A DNA stretch of 56,086 nucleotides from Nocardioidaceae bacterium (lineage in GTDB: Bacteria; Actinomycetota; Actinomycetes; Propionibacteriales; Nocardioidaceae): NCBI GenBank assembly GCA_030447865.1, contig JAUJOD010000007.1:1-56086 (forward strand). Direction: 5' to 3'. Shown here piece by piece: positions 2,941 through 17,492 of the stretch. The notes beneath the pieces were generated by a model. That model had not been told where the DNA came from and ran no database searches. It saw nothing but the letters and a program-made list of their open reading frames with translations. The first letter of the stretch is position 1. Every line of letters begins with the position of its first letter. The translations under genes and the position numbers were made by a program.

Positions 2941-3951
2941 TTACGACGGCAAGCCCACGCCGGCGCCCGAGGACGGGGAGCGGCCGGTTGCCGCCTCGGC
3001 CAGCAGCCCGTCCCAGTCCGCGAGGAATCGCCCGAGTCCGTAGCGAGACAACGCCGCCTCCCGGGCGGCGGCACCAACCGCCTGCGCCAGCCCGGGGTCG
3101 TGCACGTACCGCCACACCGCGGCAACGAGCTCCTCAAGGCGCGTCGACACCACTCCGGCCTGCGGCGGCACCGCCCGCACCGCTTCGGTGGCGGCCAGCG
3201 CGACGACCGGCATACCGAGATGCATCGCCTCGAGCAGCGACAACCCCAGCGAGGTCCACCGGGACGTGTGTAGGTAGACCCGCCGACGGGCCATCTCCCG
3301 GTGCATGTCCTGCTGTTGTGGCAGGTCCTCGAACGTCCGTAGCCGCTCAGGAGGGATGTGGAGCTTGCCGGGCAGCTCGTGCACGTTCATCCCGAAGACG
3401 TCCAGCGGGGCAGCGGCGGACAGGGCGGGCAGCAGATCCGTGCCGACCGCACGCCAGCGGCGTACCGGGTCGTTGATCGCGACTGCGGCCCGGGCCCAGT
3501 CGCCGGAATACTGATGACCCGGGTCGACGATGCCGTGCTCGACCACCTCGGTCCGCGCCGAGCCACAGTCCCAGAACAGCCGGTTGAAGTGGGTGACGTG
3601 CACGACGGGAATCTCCCGCTGGTCGGCAAGATGATGCCGGCTGGTGGCGGCACCGCCGCCTGGCGTGTTGTGCTCGACGTACACCGCCGGGACGTCGCGC
3701 CCCGGCTGCCGACCCGTCCACTCCTTCGCCAGGCCAAGCTCCGCTGGCCGCTGCAGGATGATGACGTCGAGGTCCTGGTGAGCCAGGGCATCAGGTGGCA
3801 CCTCGACAGCCTGAGCGGGCCAGTCCCAGGTGCGCGCGCGTCCCCTGCCGTCCGGTCCGCGATCGGGCAGCACCGGGAGCAGGTAGTCATGGCCGCCCTG
3901 CACGAAGGACGTGGTCCACGAGCCGTGCACATGCCACAGCAGCACCCGCAC
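2941..3951 (-). CDS. Family GT4-like glycosyltransferase
   Basis: This 336-residue protein has a GT-B fold signature. The C-terminal half carries GLSLLEAMHLGMPVVALA near residue 245, the E-x7-E-like nucleotide-sugar-binding region of GT4 enzymes. The N-terminal part (VRVLLWHVHGSW) starts directly on the first beta strand. The GTG at 3951 was chosen: GGGAGG lies 8 nt upstream, and the UDP-glucose dehydrogenase stop is at 3957-3959, so the two genes are separated by only 5 bases and probably coupled in translation. The adjacent UDP-glucuronate-forming enzyme suggests a UDP-uronate or UDP-pentose donor, but this is inference from context. Confidence 0.8.
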   Translation of the reverse strand: MRVLLWHVHGSWTTSFVQGGHDYLLPVLPDRGPDGRGRARTWDWPAQAVEVPPDALAHQDLDVIILQRPAELGLAKEWTGRQPGRDVPAVYVEHNTPGGGAATSRHHLADQREIPVVHVTHFNRLFWDCGSARTEVVEHGIVDPGHQYSGDWARAAVAINDPVRRWRAVGTDLLPALSAAAPLDVFGMNVHELPGKLHIPPERLRTFEDLPQQQDMHREMARRRVYLHTSRWTSLGLSLLEAMHLGMPVVALAATEAVRAVPPQAGVVSTRLEELVAAVWRYVHDPGLAQAVGAAAREAALSRYGLGRFLADWDGLLAEAATGRSPSSGAGVGLPS

Positions 3952-3956
3952 CGCAG

Positions 3957-5273
3957 TTACCTCCCTGCTCGCCCCAGGGCATGGAAAGCCCACCCAGCGG
4001 CCCGCCACTTGTCGGGGTCGAGTACGAGCCGGCCGTCGATGATTCGCGGAGCAGCGACCACCTCAGCCAGCGACACCGGGTCAACCCCGGCGAACTCCGC
4101 CCAGTCGGTGAGGACCAGCACAAGGTCAGCACCCTGACACGCCGCCTCGACACCCTCGACGTACTCGAGCTCAGGGTGCACGCGGCGGGCGTTCGGGGTG
4201 GCCTGCGGGTCGTACACCCGCACCGCGGCTCCTCGCGCCGCCAGTGTCGCCGCCACATCGAGCGCAGGGGAGTCACGTACGTCGTCGGAACCCGCTTTGA
4301 AGGCTGCCCCGAGGACGCCAACGGTGGTGCCGCGGGTCCTACCCCCGAGCAGCGCGACGGCCAAGTCGACGGTGCGGGCACGTTGGCGCATATTGATCGC
4401 GTCGACCTCACGGAGCAGCCCGGCCGGTTCACGAAGGCCGAGTTCCTCCGCACGCGCCACGAACGCCCGAGTGTCCTTCGGCAGGCACCCACCGCCGTAC
4501 CCCAGGCCGGGTGTCAGGAACAACGAGCCGATGCGCTCGTCCAGCCCGAGGATGGTGGTCAGGTCCGCGACATCGGCATCGGCGGCTTCGCACACCTCGG
4601 CCAGCAGGTTGACCAAGGAGATGCGGGTGGCCAGCATCGCGTTCGCTGACACCTTCGCCAGTTCGGCAGTGGCGAGATCGGTGTGCACCGAGTGGACGCC
4701 CGCAGCCAGCAGTGGGGCGTAGACGTCCCGCAGCACCTGGCCGGCAGCGTTCGTCTCTGCTCCGAAGACCAAGCGGTCCGGCCGCAAGGAGTCCTCCACC
4801 GCATGGCCTTCGCGCAAGAACTCCGGGTTCCAGGCGACGTCGACAGCAGATCCCGCGGGAGCGAGCTCGCGCAGCCAGACCCGGACCTTGGCGGCAGTGC
4901 CAACCGGGACTGTCGACTTCCCTACGACAACACACGCACGGTCCAGCAACGGCCCGAGCGAGGCCACCGCCGACCACAGCGCCGACAGGTCCGCAGCGGA
5001 GCTCCCAGCGCTTTGCGGCGTGCCGACGCAGACGAAGTGGACGTCACAGTCGCGGACAGCGGAGTAGTCGGTGTCAAAGGCCAGCCGACCGGTGCGCACA
5101 CCTTGGCGGAGCAGCTCAGCAAGTCCGGGCTCGTGGAACGGCGCGCGGCCGCTTTGGAGGAAGGCGATGCGCTCACGGTCGGTATCGATGCCCACCACGT
5201 GGTGCCCGCATGCGCTCAGGCAGGCGGCGTGGGTGGTTCCCAGGTAACCCGTCCCCAGCACAGAGATCCGCAC
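3957..5273 (-). CDS. UDP-glucose 6-dehydrogenase
   Basis: The enzyme oxidises UDP-glucose to UDP-glucuronate with two NAD+. The protein has 438 residues, a normal length. It opens with the Rossmann motif GTGYLG. The catalytic cysteine is C263 within GGGCLPKD. A C-terminal UDP-binding domain follows. The GTG at 5273 begins just before the first beta strand, with AGGGAA about 10 nt upstream; the frame remains open for 800 bases further upstream, but that part overlaps the divergent carbamoyltransferase and is not coding. The product is the substrate of the UDP-glucuronate decarboxylase at 16.5-17.5 kb, so the two probably supply UDP-xylose or UDP-glucuronate to the glycan locus between them. 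Confidence 0.92.
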   Translation of the reverse strand: MRISVLGTGYLGTTHAACLSACGHHVVGIDTDRERIAFLQSGRAPFHEPGLAELLRQGVRTGRLAFDTDYSAVRDCDVHFVCVGTPQSAGSSAADLSALWSAVASLGPLLDRACVVVGKSTVPVGTAAKVRVWLRELAPAGSAVDVAWNPEFLREGHAVEDSLRPDRLVFGAETNAAGQVLRDVYAPLLAAGVHSVHTDLATAELAKVSANAMLATRISLVNLLAEVCEAADADVADLTTILGLDERIGSLFLTPGLGYGGGCLPKDTRAFVARAEELGLREPAGLLREVDAINMRQRARTVDLAVALLGGRTRGTTVGVLGAAFKAGSDDVRDSPALDVAATLAARGAAVRVYDPQATPNARRVHPELEYVEGVEAACQGADLVLVLTDWAEFAGVDPVSLAEVVAAPRIIDGRLVLDPDKWRAAGWAFHALGRAGR

Positions 5274-5401
5274 GTGCGAAGGGTTCCCTAGCACGTGGCT
5301 TTCATGCAAGAGCCAGCGACTGGCCCCGATCTGCCAGACCGGGTGGCGGCCGCACTTGCCCTTCTTGGGAACTGGTGAGGAGCAGTGACACGGTTCACAA
5401 C

Positions 5402-5471
5402 CACTTCTCTGGACAAGAGAAGCACTTCTCTGCGGAGAATCGTTTCCCCCACAGACAAGTGGGCACTTCTC
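5402..5471. promoter_or_regulatory. Candidate operator: three CACTTCTC repeats plus a palindrome in the divergent promoter region
   Basis: CACTTCTC occurs at 5402-5409, 5423-5430 and 5464-5471. The offsets are 21 and 41 bases, close to two and four helical turns. The middle copy is half of a perfect 7-bp inverted repeat, AGAGAAG-CA-CTTCTCT, at 5416-5431. The site lies in the 249-base gap between divergent UDP-glucose dehydrogenase and carbamoyltransferase, where a shared regulator would bind. Confidence 0.5.
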
Positions 5472-5522
5472 GGAAGCGGAGCGGAATCCAGGCGGCGAGC
5501 AGCGCCAAGAAGGGAGCAGCCG

Positions 5523-7160
5523 GTGAAGGTCCTGGGCGTCAACGCGATCTTCCACGACCCGGCGGCGGCTCTGGTCATCGACGGCGTCACCGTCGCTGCG
5601 GCGGAGGAGGAGCGGTTCTCCCGGCGCAAGCACGGCAAGCGGCCGGTGCCGTTTGCGGCGTGGGAGCTGCCTGAGCTGGCGGCTTCCTGGTGCCTGGAGC
5701 ACGCGGGAATCGACGCCTCGGAGCTCGATGCTGTCGCCTACTCGTTCGACCCGGCGCTGGCGAAACCCGCCGAGCAGATGGGCCTGCACGACCCGTGGGA
5801 CCACCTGCGCCTGACGTATGCCCGCACCGCACCGAACTTCCTGGCCACCGCGCTGCCCGGGCTCGATCCCGCCGCGGTTCGGTATGTGCCGCACCATGTG
5901 GCGCATGCGGCATCCGCGGGCCTGGCGTCGCCGTACGACAGCGTCGATGTGTTGGTGCTCGACGGCCGGGGAGAGTCGGTCAGCCACCTGGCCGGTCGGT
6001 ACGACGACGGGATGCTGGAGGTGTTCGCCAGTCAGGCGCTGCCGCACTCGCTCGGTCTGCTCTACGAGGACGTCACGCAGCACCTCGGGTTCCTGCGCAG
6101 CAGCGACGAGTACAAGGTGATGGCGCTGGCGTCATACGGGACTCCGCGCTACCTCGATGAGCTGCGCGGATCGGTGTACACGACCGGTGACGGCGGGTTC
6201 CACACCGACCCGGTCGACTGGGCCAGCCTGGTGAAGCCGCGCGCCGCCTCCGAGCCGTGGACCGCAGACCATGCCGACCTCGCCGCCAGCGTGCAGCGCC
6301 GGCTCGAGGAGGTGCTGCTCGAGCTCGTGGAGGACCTGTCGCGCCGAAGCGGCGCTGACGTCCTCAGCCTCGCGGGCGGAGTCGCGCTCAACTGCGTCGC
6401 GAACAGCCGGATCGCCGCCGAGACGCCCTACCGATCGGTGTGGGTGCAACCGGCGGCAGGCGACTCCGGCACCGCGCTCGGCGGCGCGCTGCAGGTGGCT
6501 CGTGACGGCGGCGACATCACCGCACCCATGCCGGGCGCTGACCTGGGCCGCAGCTGGAGCGACGACGAGATCGAGGCCTGGCTGACCACGGCGCGAGTGC
6601 CCTACTCCCGGCCCGCCGATGTCGCGGACGCCGCCGCGGAGTGTCTGGCCGAGAACGGGATCGTGGCGTGGTTCCAGGGCCGCAGTGAGTACGGGCCGCG
6701 GGCCCTGGGTCACCGGTCGCTGCTGGCGCACCCCGGACACCCGGCCAACTTGGAGCGCCTCAACGACGTCAAGGGCCGCGAGCAGTTTCGGCCGGTCGCG
6801 CCGATGGTGCGCAGTGAGCGGGCTGCTGACATCTTCTCGCGCGGACCGTTGCCGTCGCCGTACATGCTGTTCGTCCACGACGTCGCACCGCACTGGCGGG
6901 ACCGGATCGCGGCCGTTGTGCACGTCGACGGCACCGCTCGGGTGCAAACAGTCGATTCCGCCGCCGAGCCGCTGGTCGCCCGCATGCTCGAGCGCTTCGA
7001 GCACCGCACCGGCTTGCCTGTCGTCATCAACACGAGCCTCAACACGGCGGGCCGGCCGATGGTCGACGACCCGCGCGACGCCTTGGAGTGCTTCGGCTCA
7101 GCCCCAGTCGACCTGTTGGCGATCGGTCCCTTCGTCGTACGTCGACCGGCAACGCCGTGA
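5523..7160 (+). CDS. Carbamoyltransferase of the NodU/TobZ family
   Basis: The enzyme moves a carbamoyl group from carbamoyl phosphate, through carbamoyl-adenylate, to a sugar hydroxyl. The protein has 545 residues, normal for the family. The N-terminal Kae1-like part holds the metal/ATP motif HHVAHA (H124, H125, H128). The C-terminal YrdC-like part has YGPRALGHRS starting at Y390. The GTG at 5523 has AGGGAG upstream with good spacing and begins on the expected VLGV strand; an upstream in-frame ATG at 5385 is rejected. It is the first gene of a long rightward operon, and its stop overlaps the next start (TGATG). The acceptor is probably the heptose or glycan made by the operon. Confidence 0.88.
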   Translation: MKVLGVNAIFHDPAAALVIDGVTVAAAEEERFSRRKHGKRPVPFAAWELPELAASWCLEHAGIDASELDAVAYSFDPALAKPAEQMGLHDPWDHLRLTYARTAPNFLATALPGLDPAAVRYVPHHVAHAASAGLASPYDSVDVLVLDGRGESVSHLAGRYDDGMLEVFASQALPHSLGLLYEDVTQHLGFLRSSDEYKVMALASYGTPRYLDELRGSVYTTGDGGFHTDPVDWASLVKPRAASEPWTADHADLAASVQRRLEEVLLELVEDLSRRSGADVLSLAGGVALNCVANSRIAAETPYRSVWVQPAAGDSGTALGGALQVARDGGDITAPMPGADLGRSWSDDEIEAWLTTARVPYSRPADVADAAAECLAENGIVAWFQGRSEYGPRALGHRSLLAHPGHPANLERLNDVKGREQFRPVAPMVRSERAADIFSRGPLPSPYMLFVHDVAPHWRDRIAAVVHVDGTARVQTVDSAAEPLVARMLERFEHRTGLPVVINTSLNTAGRPMVDDPRDALECFGSAPVDLLAIGPFVVRRPATP

Positions 7161-8665
7161 TGGACACCCTGGCAACGACCGTCGTGATCCCGACCGTGGG
7201 ACGGCCGAGCCTGCGCGTGCTGCTCGACGCCTTGGCCGCGGCCGCGGCAACGGGGCCAGCACCGCAGGCGGTGATCGTCGTCGACGACCGGGTCGACGGT
7301 GACCCGCTCGCGCCGACACTTGCCCATATCGCTCTCCGCAACCTGCACGTCGTCAGGTCGGGTGGGGGCGGCCCGGCCACGGCGCGCAACGTCGGTTGGC
7401 GGCTCGCTCGCACGGAGTGGGTGAGCTTCGTCGACGACGACGTCGTACCGGACCCTGACTGGCTCGGTCGGCTCGGGCGCGACCTGGCAACGGCTGCGCC
7501 GGATGTCGCCGGCATCGCGGGTCGGGTTCACGTGCCGCTGCCGCAGCACCGGCGCCCAACGGACTGGGAGCGGACCACCGCCGGGCTCGCGACCGCTCAA
7601 TGGATCACCGCCGACCTGACCTACCGGCGGTCGGCGTTGGCTGCGGTCGGTGGCTTCGACGAGCGGTTTCCCCGAGCGTTCAGGGAGGACGCCGACCTGG
7701 GACTGCGGATCTCCCGTTCCCAGGGCCGGATCACCACCGGACAACGACAGGTCGCGCACCCGGTCCGCCCCGCCGACGACTGGGTCAGTGTGCGGCAGCA
7801 GGCCGGCAACGCCGACGACGCCCTGATGCGCCGGCTGCATGGCAAGGCCTGGCGCTCGCTCGTGGGCGCACCGGCCGGACGCCGACCTCGTCACGTCGCG
7901 GTGACGGCGGCGGCCGCCGCCGCTGTGGGGCTAGCCCTGACCGGCCGACGCCGCGCTGCCGCGGTTGCGGCTCTCGGTTGGGTCAGCGGCGTTGCTGAGT
8001 TCGCTGCCGCCCGAATCGCACCGGGTCCGCGCGACAGCGACGAGATACGCCGCATGCTGCTGACCAGCGTGCTGATCCCGCCGGTCGCCAGCTGGCACAC
8101 CGTCAAGGGGATGTGGATCCATCGCCGCGCTCGTCCGTGGCGGGGGACGCCGGACCTCGTGCTCTTCGACCGGGACGGAACGCTCGTGCACGACGTGCCC
8201 TACAACGGTGACCCCCAGTTGGTCACGCCGGTCGACGGGGCCGGCGACGCCCTGGACCGGCTCCGTAACGTGGGCGTGCGGGTCGGGGTGATCACGAACC
8301 AGTCAGGCGTTGCGACCGGCCGCATCAGCGCCGATCAGGTCGACGCGGTCAACGCTCAGGTGGACCACTTTCTTGGACCGTTCGACGTCTGGCAGGTGTG
8401 CCCGCACGGCCGAGACGACGGGTGCGGCTGCCGTAAGCCCGCTCCGGGGATGGTCAAGGCTGCCTGCCAGGCGCTCGACGTCCCACCTGCCCGCTGCGTC
8501 GTCATCGGCGACATCGGCAGCGACGTCGAGGCCGCAGCTGCCGCCGGAGCAACCGGGATCTTGGTTCCGACTGCCGCCACCCGGCCCGAAGAAGTGGCCG
8601 GCGCCTCGTCGGTGGCCCTCGACCTCCAGGCGGCCGTTGAGCAGGTCTTGGCGGGTCACTGGTGA
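7160..8665 (+). CDS. Fusion: GT2 glycosyltransferase + GmhB-like heptose bisphosphate phosphatase
   Basis: This 501-residue protein joins two enzymes. Residues ~8-200 are a GT2 glycosyltransferase, with VVIPTVGR at the start and a DDD metal motif at 92-94. A hydrophobic linker spans ~235-305. Residues ~333-500 are a HAD phosphatase of the GmhB type: nucleophile D337 and D339 in FDRDGT, and a zinc-binding pattern C414-x-H416 with C422-x-C424. GmhB removes the 7- (or here possibly 1-) phosphate, depending on the step order, from manno-heptose 1,7-bisphosphate. The start is the ATG at 7160, overlapping the previous stop; a GTG at 7157 is also in frame. Fusion of a heptose-pathway phosphatase to a transferase is uncommon and ties both halves to one glycan. 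Confidence 0.85.
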   Translation: MDTLATTVVIPTVGRPSLRVLLDALAAAAATGPAPQAVIVVDDRVDGDPLAPTLAHIALRNLHVVRSGGGGPATARNVGWRLARTEWVSFVDDDVVPDPDWLGRLGRDLATAAPDVAGIAGRVHVPLPQHRRPTDWERTTAGLATAQWITADLTYRRSALAAVGGFDERFPRAFREDADLGLRISRSQGRITTGQRQVAHPVRPADDWVSVRQQAGNADDALMRRLHGKAWRSLVGAPAGRRPRHVAVTAAAAAAVGLALTGRRRAAAVAALGWVSGVAEFAAARIAPGPRDSDEIRRMLLTSVLIPPVASWHTVKGMWIHRRARPWRGTPDLVLFDRDGTLVHDVPYNGDPQLVTPVDGAGDALDRLRNVGVRVGVITNQSGVATGRISADQVDAVNAQVDHFLGPFDVWQVCPHGRDDGCGCRKPAPGMVKAACQALDVPPARCVVIGDIGSDVEAAAAAGATGILVPTAATRPEEVAGASSVALDLQAAVEQVLAGHW

Positions 8666-9720
8666 GCGGCCGGGTGCTCGCGGTCCGGCTCGACAACGCC
8701 GGAGACGTGCTGCTGGCCGGCCCTGCGCTGCGGGCGATGGCCGCAGGTGGTGATGAGCTAGTGGTTCTGGCGAGCCCACAGGGCGCCGAGAGTGCCCGGC
8801 TGCTACCTGGGGTGGCCGACGCCATCAGCTGGCGCTGCCCGTGGATCGACGCCGCGCCGCCTGCGGTAACTCCCGACGACGTGGCAGCGGTGGTCGAGGT
8901 GGTGCGCGAATGGCGCTTCGGCAAGGCACTGGTGTTCACGTCGTTTCACCAGTCGCCGCTGCCGACCGCGCTGCTGCTGCGGATGGCGGGCATTCCCTGG
9001 GTGGGGGCCATCAGCGAGGACTACCCAGGCACGTTGCTCGACCTGCGGCACCGGGTGGAGGAGGATCTGCCAGAAGCGGAACGAGGGCTGTCGCTCGCGT
9101 CGGCAGCCGGCTTCTGTCTCTCCGCGGGCGACGACGGCGCGCTTCGGGTGAGGGAGCCACTGTCCGACGTGACACCGCTCGTCGGCAGTCGCCGGTACGT
9201 CGTGCTCCACCCCGGCACCTCCGTGCCGGCGCGGGCCTGGCCCGCCGACCGTTTCGTCGAGACCGCCGGGCTCCTGCGCGAAACCGGATGGGACGTGGTG
9301 GTCACCGGAGCACCAGCAGAGACGGCGCTCACCGCCGAGGTGGCGGCTGGCGGTGTAGCGACCGACCTTGGTGGGCGTACGTCGATGCCGGCGCTCGCTG
9401 CGGTGCTCGCAGGGGCCGCGGCCGTGGTCGTCGGAAACACCGGCCCAGCGCATCTCGCCGCGGCTGTGCGCACACCTGTCGTCTCCCTGTTCGCACCGAC
9501 GGTGCCAGCGGTGCGCTGGGCGCCGTACCGGGTGCCCTGTGTGCTGCTTGGAGACCAGCAGGCGCCATGCCGGAACAGCCGGGCTACGCGCTGCCCAGTG
9601 CCGGGGCATCCGTGCCTGGCGTCGGTGACGGCGCACGACGTGGTGCGCTCCGTCGAGAAGGTGGCGGGCGGCGACTGGCCCGCCAGTAGCGCGCCGGAAG
9701 AGCAAGGGGGCAGCTTGTGA
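8662..9720 (+). CDS. GT9 family heptosyltransferase-like protein (first copy)
   Basis: This 352-residue protein resembles ADP-heptose:LPS heptosyltransferases (GT9, GT-B fold). It starts with VRLDNAGDVLLAGPALRAM, the typical GT9 first strand and loop. The C-terminal domain carries VLHPGTSVPARAWPADRF and VGNTGPAHLAAAV, equivalent to the D/N-TGxxHLAAA nucleotide-sugar site. The GTG at 8662 overlaps the previous stop (GTGA), so translation is coupled. Neighbours make an ADP-activated heptose, which supports a heptose donor; the acceptor is unknown. The enzyme has no membrane segments and should act on the cytoplasmic side. Confidence 0.87.
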   Translation: MSGRVLAVRLDNAGDVLLAGPALRAMAAGGDELVVLASPQGAESARLLPGVADAISWRCPWIDAAPPAVTPDDVAAVVEVVREWRFGKALVFTSFHQSPLPTALLLRMAGIPWVGAISEDYPGTLLDLRHRVEEDLPEAERGLSLASAAGFCLSAGDDGALRVREPLSDVTPLVGSRRYVVLHPGTSVPARAWPADRFVETAGLLRETGWDVVVTGAPAETALTAEVAAGGVATDLGGRTSMPALAAVLAGAAAVVVGNTGPAHLAAAVRTPVVSLFAPTVPAVRWAPYRVPCVLLGDQQAPCRNSRATRCPVPGHPCLASVTAHDVVRSVEKVAGGDWPASSAPEEQGGSL

Positions 9721-10925
9721 GAATCGCCATGGTGTCTGAGCACGCCAACCCGCTGGCCAGCGTGGGAGGCGTCGACTCGGGGGGCCAGAACGTGCACGTC
9801 GCGGCGTTGGCTGCCAGTTTGGTGAAGCGCGGGCACGAGGTCACCGTCTTCTCCCGCCGCGACCACCCGTCAGCTCCTGGTGTCGTGATGTCCGCCGACG
9901 GTTACGCCGTCGAACATGTGCCGGCCGGGCCGCCGACCGAGGTGCCCAAGGACGAGCTGCTGCAGTACATGCCGGCATTTGCCGACCACCTGGCGGAGCG
10001 CTGGGCGGCGCAGCGCTACGACCTGGTGCATGCCCACTTCTGGATGAGCGGTGTCGCCTCGGTGCCAGCAGCGGCAACGACGGGGGTTCCCGTCGTACAG
10101 ACATTCCACGCCCTCGGCACCGTCAAGCGACGTCAGCAGGGTGCCCGCGACACGAGTCCCCGGTCGCGCGTTCGCCGGGAGGCGCAGCTGTGCGCCGCCG
10201 TCGATCACGTCATCGCCACCTGCAGCGACGAGGTGCGGGAGCTGCGGGCGCTGGGGCTCGACTCTGCGCGGGTGAGCGTCGTCCCGTGTGGCGTCGACGT
10301 GCACGCTTTCGTGCCGGGCCCACCGCCGGCCAACCGCCGGCCACGGCTGCTGGTGCTTGGGCGGTTGGTCGAGCGGAAGGGCGTGGGCAATGTCATCGAG
10401 GCGCTGGCGTGGCTGCCGGGCGTTGAGCTCGTCATCGCTGGCGGGCCGGTTGCCGAAGCGTTGGCGGCTGACCCCGAGGTCGACCGGTTGCGCGCGTTGG
10501 CTGAGCGGCACGAGGTCGCCGACAGGGTGTGCTTCGTTGGTCGGGCCGCCCGGTCGGACGTCCCTCGGCTGATGCAGTCGGCCGACGTGGTGGTCGCCGT
10601 ACCGTGGTACGAACCCTTCGGGATCGTGCCGTTGGAGGCGATGGCGTGCGGCCGTCCAGTCGTGGGGTCGGCGGTCGGCGGGCTGCTCGACACGGTGGTG
10701 CCAGGAGTGACCGGCGAGCTCGTGCCACCTCGCCGTCCTGACCTGCTCGCCGCGGCCCTGCGAGAGCTGCTCGCCCACCCTGAGCGGCAGGCGGCGTATG
10801 GAAAGGCTGGCTTCACTCGGGCGACTCGCAGCTACCGCTGGGAGCGGGTAGCGGCAAAGACTGAGGACGTCTACGCGGCGGTGCTTTCCAGGCACGCCCA
10901 GTCACCGGTGGGGTCGTTGCGATGA
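9717..10925 (+). CDS. GT4 family glycosyltransferase
   Basis: This 402-residue GT-B enzyme begins with MVSEHANPLASVGGVDSGGQ, the N-terminal acceptor-domain signature seen in sucrose-phosphate-synthase-like GT4 proteins. The C-terminal domain has EPFGIVPLEAMACGRPV near residue 298, with the E-x7-E donor-binding motif. The GTG at 9717 overlaps the upstream stop (GTGA), and its own stop overlaps the next start (ATGA). It is a third transferase in the heptose operon. The donor is not known: GT4 enzymes use UDP-, GDP- or ADP-sugars. Confidence 0.88.
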   Translation: MRIAMVSEHANPLASVGGVDSGGQNVHVAALAASLVKRGHEVTVFSRRDHPSAPGVVMSADGYAVEHVPAGPPTEVPKDELLQYMPAFADHLAERWAAQRYDLVHAHFWMSGVASVPAAATTGVPVVQTFHALGTVKRRQQGARDTSPRSRVRREAQLCAAVDHVIATCSDEVRELRALGLDSARVSVVPCGVDVHAFVPGPPPANRRPRLLVLGRLVERKGVGNVIEALAWLPGVELVIAGGPVAEALAADPEVDRLRALAERHEVADRVCFVGRAARSDVPRLMQSADVVVAVPWYEPFGIVPLEAMACGRPVVGSAVGGLLDTVVPGVTGELVPPRRPDLLAAALRELLAHPERQAAYGKAGFTRATRSYRWERVAAKTEDVYAAVLSRHAQSPVGSLR

Positions 10926-13051
10926 GTGCCGTGGAACCGGTGGGCCGCCTCCACGTCGACCAGCTGCGCCAGGCGCTGCAGTCGTACGACGGCTGCGCCG
11001 AGGTGGCGCAGCGGTGGGGAGGGCTACTCGCTGACACGTTCGACCGCGGGGGGCGGCTGCTGGCTGCGGGTAACGGTGGCAGCGCCGCACAAGCGCAGCA
11101 TCTGACCGCCGAGCTGGTCGGCCGGTACCGGCTCGAGCGAGCGCCGCTGTCGGCGATCTGTCTCAGCGCTGAGACGTCAAGCCTCACCGCGATCATCAAC
11201 GACTACCCGCCCGAGGAGCTGTTCGCCCGACAGGTGCAGGCGCACGGCCGCCCCGGCGATGTGGTGGTCCTGCTATCGACGAGCGGCACCAGTCCCAACG
11301 TGGTCGCGGCCGCACGCCGAGCTCGTGAGCTCGGGCTCACCGTGCTGGCGTTCACCGGCCCTCGGCCGAACGAGCTGGCCGAGCTCGCGGACGAGGCGCT
11401 GTGTGTCGACGCGCCGCATACAGCGACGGTGCAGGAGCTGCACCTCGTCGCATTGCACATCCTGTGCGCGGCGGTGGACGACGCGCGCGGGCAGCCGACC
11501 CGACGGCCAACCCGCAAGCGCCTGCTGCCGTCCAACGACGCTCCTCCGCAGACCCGCCCGAGTACAGCCAGCCCGGTTTCCCACATCCGTCTGGGGCGGC
11601 GTCGCGGCCCACTCGTAGTCATCGGGGATGCGCTGCTCGACATCGACCTGGTGGGGCGGGTCGGCAGGTTGGCGCCGGACGCGCCGGTCCCGGTTGTCGA
11701 CGACCCTGTGGAGCATTACCGGCCGGGTGGCGCCGCGTTGGCCGCGTTGATGGCGGCACAGGACGGTCATGAGGTGGTGCTGGTGACCCCCCTTGGTACC
11801 GACGAAGCAGCCCACCAACTGGTCGAGCTGCTGGCGGGCGTGCATGTCGTCCCATTGCCCTACGACGGCCCGACGCCGGTGAAGCAGCGGGTCCGGGCGA
11901 GCGGTCAGTCGCTCGTGCGGATCGACAGAGGCGGGGCTGCGGGGCGCATCGGCGACGTACCCGCTGCCGTGGCTGATCTGCTCGAGCGGGCCTCGGCTGT
12001 ACTCGTCGCCGACTATGGTCGCGGAACGACCGCGGTGCCGAAAATGCGGGAACTACTGTCGCGGCTCCCGTCAAGGTGTCCGCTGGTGTGGGACCCCCAC
12101 CCGAAGGGCGCCGAGCCCGTCGAGAGGGCGCACCTGATCACTCCCAACCAGGCGGAGGCTCGATCGTGGGGAGCCCGCTATGGGGTTGCGCACAGGGACG
12201 CGGTAAGCGACCTTGCCAGCATCCGGGCCTACGCCGACGGCCTCGCGTCGGCCTGGCACGCACGAGCAGTGGCGGTCACCCTTGGCGCGCGTGGAGCGCT
12301 GCTGTCGTACGGCGAGGGCTCGCCCGTGGTGACCCCTGCGCCGCAGGTGCACTGCGTCGACCCGTGTGGCGCTGGCGACCGGTTCGCGGTGTCGGCCGCG
12401 CTGGCGCTCGGCGCGGGCCAGGTGCTCACCGAAGCGGTGCAGGAGGCGGTCAGCGCTGCGTCGGCGTACGTCGCTGCCGGCGGCCCAGCGGGGCTCCGCA
12501 CGCCGGTGGCACGGCTGGTCGACGACGCCGCTCCGCCGGTGTCCGCCGAGGAGTTGGCTGCGCACGCCTCGAGGCGGGGTGACGTGGTGGTGGCAACTGG
12601 CGGCTGCTTCGACCTGTTGCACGCTGGCCACGTGGCGACGCTGCGAGCGGCCCGCCAGCTCGGCGACTGCCTGATCGTCTGCCTCAACTCGGATGCGTCG
12701 GTGCGCCGGCTCAAGGGCCCGTCCCGGCCGCTCGTTCCTGTCGAGGACCGAGCTCGCGTGCTCGAGGCGCTTGAGTGTGTCGACGCCGTCCTGGTGTTCG
12801 ACGAGGACACCCCGCTGCAGGTCTTGGAGCGGCTGCGTCCGCACATCTGGGCGAAGGGCGGCGACTACGCGGGTGCCACGGTGCCCGAGGCCGCGGCGCT
12901 GGACCGGTGGGGTGGGCAGGCGGTTGTGCTGCCGTACCTTGCGGGTCGCTCGACGAGCCAGCTGGTCGAGGTGGCGGTGACGTCGGCGCCAGCGGAGCGC
13001 CTCGAGCGAATGGATCTGACCGAATCCGACACGACGAAGGAGACGAGCTGA
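10922..13051 (+). CDS. Three-domain fusion: GmhA isomerase + HldE kinase/adenylyltransferase
   Basis: This 709-residue protein carries three steps of nucleotide-heptose synthesis on one chain. Residues ~10-190 are a SIS-domain sedoheptulose-7-phosphate isomerase (GmhA): AGNGGS, catalytic E64 in TAEL, STSGTSPNV, and catalytic H174 in QELHLVALH. A basic/Pro-rich linker (~190-228) follows. Residues ~230-535 are a PfkB-type heptose-7-phosphate kinase, with the catalytic base D486 in GAGDRF. Residues ~555-690 are a cytidylyltransferase-like domain with H567-A-G-H570, the HldE adenylyltransferase. GmhA and HldE are normally separate proteins. The phosphatase for the missing step is the GmhB domain two genes upstream. 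The ATG at 10922 overlaps the previous stop. No obvious HldD epimerase is present. Confidence 0.92.
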   Translation: MSAVEPVGRLHVDQLRQALQSYDGCAEVAQRWGGLLADTFDRGGRLLAAGNGGSAAQAQHLTAELVGRYRLERAPLSAICLSAETSSLTAIINDYPPEELFARQVQAHGRPGDVVVLLSTSGTSPNVVAAARRARELGLTVLAFTGPRPNELAELADEALCVDAPHTATVQELHLVALHILCAAVDDARGQPTRRPTRKRLLPSNDAPPQTRPSTASPVSHIRLGRRRGPLVVIGDALLDIDLVGRVGRLAPDAPVPVVDDPVEHYRPGGAALAALMAAQDGHEVVLVTPLGTDEAAHQLVELLAGVHVVPLPYDGPTPVKQRVRASGQSLVRIDRGGAAGRIGDVPAAVADLLERASAVLVADYGRGTTAVPKMRELLSRLPSRCPLVWDPHPKGAEPVERAHLITPNQAEARSWGARYGVAHRDAVSDLASIRAYADGLASAWHARAVAVTLGARGALLSYGEGSPVVTPAPQVHCVDPCGAGDRFAVSAALALGAGQVLTEAVQEAVSAASAYVAAGGPAGLRTPVARLVDDAAPPVSAEELAAHASRRGDVVVATGGCFDLLHAGHVATLRAARQLGDCLIVCLNSDASVRRLKGPSRPLVPVEDRARVLEALECVDAVLVFDEDTPLQVLERLRPHIWAKGGDYAGATVPEAAALDRWGGQAVVLPYLAGRSTSQLVEVAVTSAPAERLERMDLTESDTTKETS

Positions 13052-13734
13052 TGAGCCTGGGAACGGTGCTGGTGACAGGTGGTGCCTCCGGTTTGGGCGC
13101 AGCGACCGTAGCGGCGGTGGCAGCCGCTGGCGGGCGTCCGGTGGTTCTGGACCGGACTGTCGCCGAGGGCGACGTCGACCAGGAGAAGGTTGACCTCGCC
13201 GACCGGCGGGCCGCAGAGGAGGCGGTGCGTGCTGTGTCGGAGCGCACTGGCGGCATTGACGCGGTCGTCACGTGCGCCGGCATCGACGCCTGCGGGAAGC
13301 TCGAGGACGTCGACGCTGACCTGTGGGACCGGGTGATCGCGGTCAACCTTCTCGGTACGGCGGCCGTCGTGCGGGCCGCGCTGCCGGACCTGCTCAGCCG
13401 ACAGGGTCGCGTCGTGACCGTCGCCTCCACATTGGGGCTGCGCGCCGTTAGCGACGCCACGGCGTACTGCGCCTCGAAGTTCGGAGTGGTTGGCTTCACG
13501 CGGGCGTTGGCCGCTGAGACCGCCGGTCGGCTGGGCGTGACGTTGCTGGTTCCGGGTGGCATGCACACACCGTTCTTCGACGACCGCGACGAGCAGTACA
13601 AGCCGCCGCCGGACGCCAAGCTCAACCAGCCGCACAATGTCGCAGCCACCGTTGTCTTCGCGTTGCAGCAACCCCCCGGTTGCGAGGTGCGGGAGCTGGT
13701 CGTCACGCCGTCGACCGAAGGGTCCTGGCCCTGA
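13051..13734 (+). CDS. Classical short-chain dehydrogenase/reductase
   Basis: This 227-residue NAD(P)-dependent oxidoreductase has the cofactor motif TGGASGLG at the N-terminus, a CAG-equivalent NNAG region (TCAGID), and the catalytic pair Y139-x3-K143 (YCASK). The length is slightly short for a classical SDR (~250). The ATG at 13051 overlaps the HldE stop (TGATG). Its place in the heptose operon suggests it modifies an activated heptose or another sugar of the glycan. It is not an extended SDR and so is not a normal HldD 6-epimerase. Substrate unknown. Confidence 0.82.
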   Translation: MSLGTVLVTGGASGLGAATVAAVAAAGGRPVVLDRTVAEGDVDQEKVDLADRRAAEEAVRAVSERTGGIDAVVTCAGIDACGKLEDVDADLWDRVIAVNLLGTAAVVRAALPDLLSRQGRVVTVASTLGLRAVSDATAYCASKFGVVGFTRALAAETAGRLGVTLLVPGGMHTPFFDDRDEQYKPPPDAKLNQPHNVAATVVFALQQPPGCEVRELVVTPSTEGSWP

Positions 13735-14687
13735 CCCCGCCGCCCGCTGTCGTCGCGCTGCGGGCGCTTGGGCTTGGCGACTTCCTGACCGGCGTACCAG
13801 CGCTGCGGGCCTTGCGCGCGGCCTTTGCCGGTCACGAACTGGTGCTGGCCACGCCGGCTGCCATCGAGCCCCTCGTCAGGCTGGCGGGGGTGGCCGACCG
13901 GGTGTACCCCGCGGCTGGGTTGGCGCCGTTGCGGTGGACAGGCCCAGCTCCGGAGGTCGCGGTCAATCTGCACGGGCGCGGGCCGGAAAGCCACCGGCTG
14001 CTGCAGAGGCTGGCTCCGCGTCGGCTGCTGGCCTTCGGCTGCGCGCAAGCGGGGGTGCAGGGCCCGGCCTGGACCGAAGCCGAGCACGAAGTGGAGCGGT
14101 GGTGCCGGTTGGTGACCGAATCCACCGGCGTCCGAGCCGACCCCGCCGACCTCGCCCTGCCAACCCCGGGGATTGACCCCGCGGTCGACGGCGCCGTGGT
14201 CATCCATCCCGGAGCTGCCTTCGCGTCGAGGCGATGGCCTGTCGACCGGTTCGCGCAGGTGGCGGCCTGGGCTGCGTCGACGGGGTGCCCGGTCGTCATT
14301 ACCGGCTCGGGGAGCGAGCGTGAGCTAGCCCAACGAGTAGCGGCTGACGCGGGTGGCAGGGTAGGCGTACTTGCCGGCGAGACAACGTTGCTCGAGCTCG
14401 CAGCGCTGGTAGCGAGCGCCCAGCTGGTGATCTGCGGCGACACCGGCGTGGCGCACCTGGCGACAGCCTTCCGCACCCCTTCCGTCGTGCTCTTCGGCCC
14501 CGTCCCGCCCGGACTGTGGGGGCCGCCCGACAACGGGCCGCACGTTGCGCTGTGGGACGGCGGTGCGCGGGGGAACCCGTGGGGGAGCACGGCCGATCCC
14601 GCATTGCTGCGCATCAGTGTCGATGCGGTCGTCGGCGCTGCCACCCAGTTGCTGTCACACTGCGTGAGTGACCCTTCCGGAGCGTAA
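13731..14687 (+). CDS. GT9 family heptosyltransferase-like protein (second copy), probable CTG start
   Basis: This 318-residue protein has the GT9 pattern: VVALRALGLGDFLTGVPALRAL at the N-terminus, HPGAAFASRRWPVDRF in the middle and GDTGVAHLATAF at the donor site. It is distinct from the copy at 8.7-9.7 kb, so two different heptosyl linkages are likely. No ATG or GTG lies near the expected start. A CTG at 13731 overlaps the SDR stop as CTGA, mirroring the ATGA/GTGA overlaps in the rest of the operon, and has GAAGGG 8 nt upstream; this was chosen. A TTG at 13680 is the conventional alternative and would add 17 residues and overlap the SDR gene by 55 bases. Confidence 0.82.
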   Translation: MTPPPAVVALRALGLGDFLTGVPALRALRAAFAGHELVLATPAAIEPLVRLAGVADRVYPAAGLAPLRWTGPAPEVAVNLHGRGPESHRLLQRLAPRRLLAFGCAQAGVQGPAWTEAEHEVERWCRLVTESTGVRADPADLALPTPGIDPAVDGAVVIHPGAAFASRRWPVDRFAQVAAWAASTGCPVVITGSGSERELAQRVAADAGGRVGVLAGETTLLELAALVASAQLVICGDTGVAHLATAFRTPSVVLFGPVPPGLWGPPDNGPHVALWDGGARGNPWGSTADPALLRISVDAVVGAATQLLSHCVSDPSGA

Positions 14688-16497
14688 CCGTCCTGCCCTG
14701 CCCACGGCTCCGCTCGACCGCCGCGACCTCCTGAAGCTCGCCGCCGGCGGCCTCGTGGGCGTCGGCACGCTCGGCCTACCCGCATCCGGCGCCGCCGCGT
14801 CGACGGTTGGAACGGGCGGGCCGGTGACGATGGCGATGCACATCCACGGCTCCTTCAGCGAGGGCACGGCCAGCATGGACGCCCACCTTGACCAGGCAAA
14901 ACGGCTCGGGGTGGACGTCGTGTGGTGGACCGACCACGACTTCCGGGTGGCGGCGCTCGGCTACCGCCGGGCCGTCGGCTTCGACGGTCAGCAGGAGTAC
15001 GAGAACGGCTTGGCGTGGACCTGGGTGCCCTACACCAGCGGGAATCCACCGCTTGCGGATCACGAGTTCGTCGCGACGCCGCACTCGCCGGACGAAGCTG
15101 GTGGCGCGCTGCGGGTGCGGGTGACCGGGCCGGTCGACGGGTCGGCGGCGTCATACCTGCTCGAGGGCGAGGCGTGGAACTTCACCTACACCACCAGCTA
15201 CGTCGACACGGTGCTCGAGCTCGACGTACTCCCCGAGCTGGTGAGCGAGTCAGCCGTTGTGGTGGTCGAGATCGCCTCCAGCTACCGCCCGGCCTCGGGG
15301 AGGCGCCCAGCCGGTCAGTACCGGTTGCAGTACCGGATCGGCGCCCCGCCCGGACACCGTCGAGCAGACAGCGGCCGGCTGGGGATCGTTGGTGTGCCGG
15401 TGGCCGGTACCGGATGGCAGCGGGTGCGGATGGACCTGCGCGCCGACCACGCGAAGCTGTGGCCCGACACCGTTGCCGGCGACGCGTCGATCAAGCAGTT
15501 GCGGGTCGGGGTGCGGGCCGTCGGCGCCGCGACGGCTCAGGCGGTGGTCGACCGGCTGCGCTTCCTGCGAGACCGGCAGTCCGCCGCCGACGGGATGGCC
15601 TTGCTCCGCGGCCTGGTTCGTGCTTATCGCGCGCGCTACCCCGGCATCACGCAGTACGCCGCCTCGGAGATCTCGCTCGTCGAGCACCTCAACGCGTTCG
15701 GCGGCGACGGCACGCTGCCGACGTACGACACCACCACGCCCGTCAAGGACCCGTCGGTGGAAGCTCAGCGCGCCATGGTCAGCTTCCTGCACCGGCATGG
15801 GGCGGTGGTGAGCATCAACCACCCGGCACCGGGCACGTCGCTGGCCCGGCGGTTGGTGACCACCAACGGCCTCGGTGCCGACATCATCGAGGTCGGCACC
15901 TCCCGGCAGGTCGAACGGTTGGCGGAAGCGTTCGACGTAGCGGCTCGGAACGCGGTCTTCCTCACCGCGAGTGGAGTCAGCGACGACCACGCCGGCAACG
16001 ACTGGCTCAACCGGGCCACGCCGCGCTGGGTCACTGGCACCTGGGCGGGCAGTCGCGCCAGCGGGGAGTTGTGCGCGGCGATGGCCGCCGGTCGGGCGTG
16101 GTTCTTCGACCCGTTGTGGTGGCGGGGAGAACTCGACCTGCTCGTCGACGGCCGGGTGCCCATGGGCGGGGTGCTGTTGACCCGACATCGGACCGTGCCG
16201 GTGCGAGTCACCGCGACGGCACTGCCCGGGAATGCGTCGCTGGAGTTGGTCGTGGGCCGCTGCGACCGGGCTGGCGCTGATGTGCTGCAGCCCGCGAACC
16301 GGAGCGTAACGGTGCCGGCCCGTGACGTGGTGGGTGGGCGCTGGTCCACCGACGTAGCTCGCGGCGGGGGTGTCTACATCCGGGCGATGGTCCGCCGCTA
16401 CGACGGCACCGTCGTTGGGTTCTCCAACCCGGTCTGGGTACTGCCGGCCAGGCTGCAGGGTCAGCTCGCCGTGCCCCGGGACCGCAGGTACACCTAG
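14668..16497 (+). CDS. Tat-exported PHP-domain (CehA/McbA-like) metallohydrolase
   Basis: The protein has 609 residues. A twin-arginine signal (DRRDLLK at 17-23, then a hydrophobic stretch and an Ala-rich cleavage region to ~45) predicts export of a folded metalloprotein. The mature part starts with a PHP domain: H58-x-H60 in MHIHGSFSEG and TDHD at 88-91. A large insertion (~125-310) resembles a carbohydrate-binding-like beta domain. Further PHP residues appear near SDDHAGNDW in the later third. PHP proteins hydrolyse phosphoesters with two or three metals; the substrate is unknown. The GTG at 14668 overlaps the preceding GT9 gene by 20 bases. As the last gene of the glycan operon it may trim or process the exported product. 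Confidence 0.78.
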   Translation: MTLPERNRPALPTAPLDRRDLLKLAAGGLVGVGTLGLPASGAAASTVGTGGPVTMAMHIHGSFSEGTASMDAHLDQAKRLGVDVVWWTDHDFRVAALGYRRAVGFDGQQEYENGLAWTWVPYTSGNPPLADHEFVATPHSPDEAGGALRVRVTGPVDGSAASYLLEGEAWNFTYTTSYVDTVLELDVLPELVSESAVVVVEIASSYRPASGRRPAGQYRLQYRIGAPPGHRRADSGRLGIVGVPVAGTGWQRVRMDLRADHAKLWPDTVAGDASIKQLRVGVRAVGAATAQAVVDRLRFLRDRQSAADGMALLRGLVRAYRARYPGITQYAASEISLVEHLNAFGGDGTLPTYDTTTPVKDPSVEAQRAMVSFLHRHGAVVSINHPAPGTSLARRLVTTNGLGADIIEVGTSRQVERLAEAFDVAARNAVFLTASGVSDDHAGNDWLNRATPRWVTGTWAGSRASGELCAAMAAGRAWFFDPLWWRGELDLLVDGRVPMGGVLLTRHRTVPVRVTATALPGNASLELVVGRCDRAGADVLQPANRSVTVPARDVVGGRWSTDVARGGGVYIRAMVRRYDGTVVGFSNPVWVLPARLQGQLAVPRDRRYT

Positions 16498-16535: not shown

Positions 16536-17492
16536 TCAGGCGGGCAGGCGCTGAGCAGCGAACCATTCGATGGTGCGAGCCAACCCCTCGTCGGACGAGA
16601 CGAGCGGTGTCCATCCAAGCCGTTCGCACGCCAAGGACGTGTCCGGGCAGCGCTGCCTGGGATCGTCGGTTGGCAGGTCGACGAACTCAATAGGTGATGA
16701 CGTCTTCGTGAGCCGGCGGATCCGCTCGGCGAGGTCGAGCATCGTCATCTCGTCGGGGTTCCCGATGTTGATCGGTCCAGCCTCTCCGCTGTCCGCGACG
16801 GCGAGGATGCCGGCGACCGTGTCGTCGACGTAACAGATGGAGCGCGTCTGAGTGCCGTCGCCGGCCACGGTGAGCGGTTCGCCACGAAGTGCCTGACTCA
16901 CGAAGTTGGGAATCGCTCGACCGTCGTCGGGGCGCATCCGCGGGCCGTATGTGTTGAAGATGCGCACGATGCCGGTGTCGACCCCGTACGCCGTGCGGTA
17001 GGCGGTAGTCAACGCCTCGCCGAAGCGCTTGGCCTCGTCATAGACCCCGCGCGGCCCGACGGGGTTGACGTTGCCCCAGTAGTGCTCCGGCTGCGGGTGC
17101 ACAAGCGGGTCGCCGTACACCTCCGATGTCGATGCCAACACGAACCGCGCATCCTGACGGCGGGCAAGCTCCAACGCGTTCATCGTGCCCATGCTGCCCA
17201 CTCGCAGCGTCTCGATCGGCATCCGTAGGTAGTGCAGGGGCGAGGCGGGGGAGGCAAGGTGCAGCACCCAGTCGACGGGGCCGTCGACGGCCAGCTGCGC
17301 AGACACGTCCTGGTCGATGACGTCGAAGGCCGGGGAAGCGGTGAGATGGCTCAGGTTCGCCGGCGTACCCGTGCAGAAGTTGTCGACGCACACGACGTCG
17401 AACCCACGCTCGAGCAGTCGCTCGCATACCCACGAACCCAGAAAGCCGGCTCCACCGGTGACGACCGCCCTGGTGCACTCAATGTCTGACAC
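16536..17492 (-). CDS. UDP-glucuronate decarboxylase (UDP-xylose synthase) type extended SDR
   Basis: This 318-residue NAD-dependent enzyme would convert UDP-glucuronate to UDP-xylose. It shows GGAGFLGS for NAD binding, the STSEVYGDP motif (T122 and E124 region), the catalytic Y151-x3-K155 (YDEAKR), and the family motif [11 protein letters not shown]. The sequence pattern fits UXS better than 4,6-dehydratases. The start is the GTG at 17492, with a strong GGAAGGAGGAGG just upstream. The substrate would come from the UDP-glucose dehydrogenase at 4-5.3 kb. The gene converges on the PHP-protein gene with a 38-base gap, and its 5' side holds a structured leader. Confidence 0.86.

Follow-up and report, generated by a model that had tools for sequence, protein, structure and literature searches.

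Gene content of the window

The first 56 kb of contig JAUJOD010000007.1 (the window; 56,086 nucleotides in full), from a Nocardioidaceae genome of 3.12 Mb and 97.8% completeness, was analysed for a compact operon predicted to make and transfer a nucleoside diphosphate (NDP) heptose. Open reading frames (ORFs) and family searches gave a plus-strand run in the order carbamoyltransferase, GT2-GmhB, GT9a, GT4, GmhA-HldE, SDR and GT9b. These seven compact genes hold a full predicted NDP-heptose route together with two GT9s, a GT4, an SDR and a NodU-type carbamoyltransferase. The domain assignments were significant in Pfam and NCBIfam searches and, with ORFs and motifs, confirmed the gene content and compactness described in a first-pass annotation of the same DNA. 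Read from the DNA, the junctions carbamoyltransferase/GT2-GmhB, GT2-GmhB/GT9a, GT9a/GT4 and GT4/GmhA-HldE overlap by 4 nt each and GmhA-HldE/SDR by 1 nt (ATG at 13051). An overlap of 1–4 bases had been claimed for every junction; this held for these five but not for that of GT9b, which lacks an ordinary start codon where it had been claimed. Between 13680 and 13800 there is no ATG or GTG and one TTG only, and the start options are TTG 13680 (55-nt overlap) or a CTG such as 13731 (4 nt). The stretch 5262..5522 (no strand assigned) is presumed to be the promoter region on account of its position between divergent genes. The operon is more than a chance arrangement, as the same set recurs across Actinomycetota.

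All four activities of the NDP-heptose route are present by sequence, with their catalytic motifs, as first proposed for GmhA, the HldE-type kinase and adenylyltransferase and GmhB. The GmhA-HldE fusion (10922..13051, plus strand; SIS/gmhA, PfkB and rfaE_dom_II domains) is a single 709-aa ORF predicted to act as sedoheptulose-7-phosphate isomerase, heptose-7-phosphate kinase and heptose-1-phosphate nucleotidyltransferase. Its closest solved relatives were phosphoheptose isomerases, a heptose kinase and a nucleotidyltransferase; the kinase carries GAGD and the nucleotidyltransferase HAGH. GmhB forms the C-terminal part of a fusion in which a GT2 glycosyltransferase is joined to a HAD-IIIA phosphatase (7157..8665, plus strand; GT2 and HAD domains). 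It has DRDGTL and CPH...CGCRKP motifs, and its closest GmhB structures were 4pnh and 2gmw. No HldD 6-epimerase scored above cut-off genome-wide (best 111.8 bits, cut-off 274.6), and the D,D form of the heptose is therefore expected.

The sugar nucleotide had been called ADP-heptose. The NDP-heptose route stood, but the nucleotide may be other than ADP, since the nucleotidyltransferase carries an arginine linked to CDP/UDP use. In a commentary on Tang et al. 2024, use of CTP/UTP is tied to an arginine in the (F/L)xxGxSTT motif, at its position 5. The window motif, YLAGRSTS, keeps the arginine but not the exact consensus. Among 101 HldE-family ORFs called in 81 loci and the window, whose copy is counted twice through locus L081, position 5 was R in 74 and another residue in 6, while 21 had no such motif. 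In that cross-kingdom work the combination of isomerase, kinase and nucleotidyltransferase is one of three subgroups. Per the commentary it concerns immune agonists, NDP-heptose being a known ALPK1 agonist class. The window shares with it this combination and the motif arginine.

Both GT9s belong to the GT9 family by sequence, with the TGxxH region present. GT9a (8662..9720) and GT9b (13680..14687), both heptosyltransferase-like and on the plus strand, each matched PF01075 at 101 bits. Their TGxxH-region motifs are NTGPAH and DTGVAH, respectively. Best matches in the PDB were HepI structures for GT9a and HepII/HepI for GT9b, with one generic GT9 also among the closest. The GT4 glycosyltransferase (9717..10925, plus strand) is related to MshA and has PDB relatives; its identification as MshA itself was rejected, the TIGR03449 score of 233 bits being half of the cut-off of 462.5. 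The NodU/TobZ-type O-carbamoyltransferase (5523..7160, plus strand; Carbam_trans_N and _C) has as solved relatives carbamoyltransferase 7xb6, novobiocin carbamoyltransferase, GdmN and TobZ. A second NodU-type carbamoyltransferase, 37–42% identical to it, lies outside the window in the same genome (G000:C8:56769-58355). The remaining member is a classical SDR oxidoreductase (13051..13734, plus strand; adh_short) with generic SDR relatives.

The extent first given to the system, 5523–14687, proved too narrow, and three minus-strand neighbours had been missed. These are two further homologues of genes in the cwg operon of Streptomyces coelicolor, a CwgF-like transferase and a CwgA-like UDP-glucuronate decarboxylase, and a UDP-glucose 6-dehydrogenase (UGDH). 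The CwgF-like protein (2941..3951) is a GT4-like glycosyltransferase matching Pfam Glycos_transf_1. UGDH (3957..5261), the predicted maker of UDP-glucuronate, scored 407 bits to TIGR03026 (cut-off 189.8), with AglM/TuaD-like matches below their cut-offs. The CwgA-like gene (16536..17492) is a predicted UDP-glucuronate decarboxylase (UDP-xylose synthase, UXS). Among solved structures its product scored 327 bits to human UXS1 (UDP-glucuronate decarboxylase 1) versus 142 for the next family, and an identification of this flanking epimerase as HldD was rejected in favour of UXS. NCBIfam gave dehydratase/epimerase names only, all below cut-off, and an STSEVYG motif is found in 38 of 41 called members of the family. 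With UGDH and the decarboxylase at the two flanks, UDP-xylose is predicted.

Orthology with the cwg operon

The cwg operon of S. coelicolor comprises 12 genes, SCO6179–SCO6190 (cwgA–cwgL). The putative products given in PMC5839063 are a phosphoheptose isomerase for cwgH and a bifunctional synthase/transferase for cwgI. The operon has a published promoter and is described as belonging to the Class II sigmaE targets, with induction by vancomycin and a partial dependence on sigE. In literature passages its product goes no further than a predicted cell wall glycan. A 26-base stretch of this promoter was found in 1 of 392 Streptomyces genomes. We infer that genome (L103) to be S. coelicolor or a near relative, as it holds the exact cwg promoter together with the divergent SCO6178 promoter, the latter compared by eye.

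Downstream of the promoter match lie 12 colinear matches, ten of them to window genes or domains (54–75% identity), followed by two GT2 genes. Identities to the window were 64% for the UXS-like gene, the first after the promoter, 75% for NodU, 54% for GT2, 62% for GmhB, 59% for GT9a, 61% for the CwgF-like transferase, 56% for GT4, 63% for GmhA, 54% for HldE and 54% for GT9b. The published cwgH and cwgI labels fit positions 8 and 9 of this run, to which the two parts of the window's GmhA-HldE fusion correspond. The carbamoyltransferase takes the CwgB position, the GT2-GmhB fusion those of CwgC and CwgD, GT9a that of CwgE, GT4 that of CwgG and GT9b that of CwgJ, while the minus-strand decarboxylase and transferase take those of CwgA and CwgF, the latter being the sixth cwg gene.

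Ten of the 12 cwg functions are thus found in or beside the window operon. NodU, GT2, GmhB, GT9a, GT4, GmhA, HldE and GT9b follow one another in the same order as in cwg. The window departs from cwg in having its CwgA and CwgF homologues on the opposite strand, one at each flank, in the GmhA-HldE and GT2-GmhB fusions, in an extra SDR and in the adjacent UGDH. In place of a single colinear operon the window accordingly has eight functions in order on the plus strand and two genes on the minus strand, and on this comparison it is a rearranged cwg-type locus, orthologous to cwg. The operon is not singular but belongs to a kind already described in actinobacteria, though poorly understood. New are the UDP-xylose branch, the class-wide linkage of GT9 and HldE and a testable product composition. 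No proposal of a heptose product for cwg was found in the literature searched, a search that did not extend to Hong et al. 2002.

Distribution and linkage of heptose supply and transfer

Scanning with the fusion protein yielded 165 relatives, and the 80 best of them were kept as named loci. Counts over these 80 are from tblastn with identity floors of 38–55% set per protein, many loci being cut by contig ends. Other locus calls were made by a codon-score gene caller, with rough starts and some genes missed (NodU in L019 and L074, GT4 in L051). The nearest named relative is a Nocardioidaceae metagenome-assembled genome (MAG; L001) with a fusion protein 93% identical. The loci include Nocardioidaceae, Streptomyces, Kitasatospora, Actinoplanes, Curtobacterium and other Microbacteriaceae as well as Actinomadura, Nonomuraea, Saccharopolyspora, Geodermatophilaceae, Solirubrobacter and a Dormibacteraeota MAG. 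HldE and GmhA were matched in all 80, GT4 in 73, GT9a in 70, GT9b in 69, the CwgF-like transferase in 69 (at least 40% identity), GmhB in 65, GT2 in 41, NodU in 40, the SDR in 40 (at least 45% identity), the UXS-like protein in 37, a CwgK/L-like GT2 in 25, UGDH in 5 and the Tat-PHP protein, encoded downstream of GT9b, in 1. UGDH is divergent from and adjoins NodU in its five loci, all Nocardioidaceae.

If a locus is counted as cwg-type when HldE is joined by GT9a, GT4 or GT9b, 74 of the 80 qualify; the other six are L003, L004, L005, L008, L033 and L052. It had been suggested that actinomycete genomes be searched for the GmhA-HldE fusion next to GT9 and NodU-type genes. The set indeed recurs, but the fusion is a poor search key as it is a minority arrangement, GmhA and HldE sharing one open frame in 6 loci, four of those a different cluster, and being separate in 74. 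Two side arrangements were observed. A second HldE occurs in L018 (12881-20702) and about 20 Microbacteriaceae loci next to an aldehyde dehydrogenase, a GT2, a VTT-domain protein and a two-component pair, with a further GT9 nearby, and all six copies inspected were without the C-terminal GxST motif. In Actinomadura loci L033 (10632-12176) and L052 (10001-12174), GmhA and HldE stand without cwg transferases, in a locus that also has a UXS-family gene.

Linkage was evaluated in 148 genomes of the class at a completeness floor of 90%, with E<=1e-30 for the HldE-type nucleotidyltransferase and E<=1e-10 for GT9. The nucleotidyltransferase was found in 37 genomes and GT9 in 41; 36 had both, 1 HldE only, 5 GT9 only and 106 neither (Fisher p = 8e-28, uncorrected for shared ancestry and with the window's own genome included). 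A GT9 was within 8 kb of HldE at 48 of 50 HldE places, and HldE within 8 kb of GT9 at 86 of 113 GT9 places. This co-occurrence and colocation across genomes supports heptose as the donor of the GT9s and upholds the tie to heptose supply put forward in the first-pass annotation. Recruitment of the GT9s and the nucleotidyltransferase to another sugar is the least probable of the alternatives considered and very unlikely. It could account for family scores below equivalog cut-offs, for the TGxxH motif of GT9a, which has N in place of the D of HepI, and for the five GT9-only genomes, but the four heptose-route activities are kept together with motifs intact and the linkage is near total in the sample. 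With the nucleotidyltransferase in 37 of 148 genomes, a sizeable share of the class may make NDP-heptose. It was above cut-off in 7 of 30 close relatives of the window's genome, and across the phylum 23 of 197 genomes, from 19 of 146 genera, have the GT9b protein (E<=1e-40).

The distribution also bears on whether the carbamoylated heptose belongs to a diffusible natural product (septacidin-, hygromycin- or bleomycin-like) rather than to an envelope glycan, which we regard as unlikely. A heptose antibiotic, septacidin, exists in Streptomyces according to the commentary. Moreover, a different set of GmhA-HldE, GT9 and carbamoyltransferase is found with radical SAM, P450 and serine hydroxymethyltransferase (SHMT) genes on plasmid pFRL3, and L003, L004, L005 and L008 pair the fusion with a distant NodU (37–39%) outside a cwg context. 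Against this, no nonribosomal peptide synthetase, polyketide synthase, P450 or radical SAM match was seen among the 28 window ORFs tested, which are part of the total, and neither tailoring nor transport genes appear among the operon's Pfam matches. Many families conserve the set, and its orthologue in S. coelicolor is described as a sigmaE-controlled, vancomycin-induced envelope-stress operon. The first-pass claim of a carbamoylated heptose product accordingly stands as regards the heptose route, the GT9 link and the carbamoyltransferase, whereas the secondary metabolite it allowed for is less likely; a septacidin/hygromycin-type cluster was rejected on gene content.

The pFRL3 cluster itself (L105, NC_023283.1, 3787-14933; a Streptomyces linear plasmid), which also has a GDSL esterase and an NAD(P) oxidoreductase beside the GmhA-HldE fusion, looks by gene content like one for a heptose- and carbamoyl-bearing natural product. 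L003, L004, L005 and L008 have a similar context, with neighbour families common to the four. On a replicon of Streptomyces fungicidicus (L104, NZ_CP023408.1, 5830-13018) a reduced set of epimerase, carbamoyltransferase, two glycosyltransferases, SIS protein and rfaE2 was observed, with no GT9 annotated among the listed genes of a gene table known to be incomplete.

Predicted product of the operon

Taken together, we consider it likely that this rearranged cwg operon directs synthesis of a heptose-containing, probably xylose-containing, O-carbamoylated cell-envelope glycoconjugate. In the proposed route UGDH and the CwgA-like decarboxylase would make UDP-glucuronate and then UDP-xylose. The two GT9s would add heptose at the cytoplasmic face, where GT2, GT4 and the CwgF-like transferase would add other sugars, probably including xylose. 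The NodU-type enzyme would be responsible for O-carbamoylation, for which heptose is a plausible site by analogy with wapO of Pseudomonas, which is described as placing a carbamoyl on HepII (7-O-carbamoyl-heptose) of the lipopolysaccharide (LPS) inner core. The lipid or polymer acceptor and the exporter would be encoded elsewhere. Gene content, orthology with cwg and the GT9/HldE linkage were directly observed; enzyme activities, sugars, linkages, the carbamoyl site and envelope location in the host are predictions from these.

Addition of heptose to proteins in the manner of TibC/Aah, with the glycosyltransferases acting on protein, is improbable to a greater degree than a natural product. 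Autotransporter heptosyltransferases exist (PMC4358343), but several different transferases together with a UDP-xylose supply point to an oligosaccharide, and the nearest PDB structures to the GT9s are those of HepI/HepII and of one generic GT9.

The absence of LPS genes noted earlier was borne out for LpxC, the only lipid A gene searched, which had no match in the window's genome and matches in 4 of 14 control genomes. The Gram-negative ADP-heptose route (GmhA, HldE, GmhB, HldD; WaaC/WaaF) shares with the window the same four NDP-heptose steps and the GT9 family. The window genome differs in having neither an LpxC match nor an HldD above cut-off, and in its fusions. The Pseudomonas inner core likewise brings heptosyltransferases together with a carbamoyltransferase, a likeness drawn from description and not from sequence, but it is built on the Kdo-lipid A of a diderm and has L,D-heptose.

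Several observations count against the glycoconjugate. GmhA, kinase, nucleotidyltransferase, GmhB and GT9 scores fell below NCBIfam equivalog cut-offs, although the nucleotidyltransferase was narrowly above its own in the genome-wide search. HldE was missing at the threshold used from 5 of the 41 GT9 genomes. Among the 50 cwg-type loci covered by 20 kb of sequence or more, NodU is present in 31 and missing from 19, all Microbacteriaceae, so by these counts carbamoylation is not universal among cwg-type loci. CwgK/L homologues were not found in the window, and nothing in the S. coelicolor-type operon corresponds to the SDR. None of the operon's Pfam matches is to an initiating phosphoglycosyl transferase, a flippase, a polymerase or a ligase, and by simple hydropathy scanning each operon protein has a single hydrophobic stretch or none. 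The strict pattern for a sigmaE-like site had no match in the window and matched upstream of 1 of 26 other Streptomyces-type operons (0.14 expected from shuffles), whose called starts are rough; conservation of the sigmaE promoter was not seen with this pattern. Finally, no cwg product has been isolated so far.

As a more specific and tentative proposal, which we hold possible but less than probable, cwg-type operons in monoderm actinobacteria would make an LPS-inner-core-like oligosaccharide of D,D-heptoses and xylose, its heptose O-carbamoylated and drawn from ADP-, CDP- or UDP-heptose, that serves envelope remodelling under cell-wall stress. If true, this would give concrete composition to a glycan called 'putative' since 2002. 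As cwg is an established vancomycin/sigmaE envelope-stress target, the pathway reading makes its product checkable by sugar analysis.

Two neighbouring genes were also observed. The metallohydrolase gene at 14668..16497 (plus strand) is CehA/McbA-type (NF038032 59 bits, below the cut-off of 80; no Pfam match), and its product carries a putative Tat signal, as read in the first-pass annotation. Its 20-base overlap with GT9b was confirmed from the DNA. Found in 1 of the 80 named loci only, the closest relative L001, it is probably outside the conserved system. At the other flank a short ATP-dependent DNA ligase gene (1957-2919) adjoins the CwgF-like gene.

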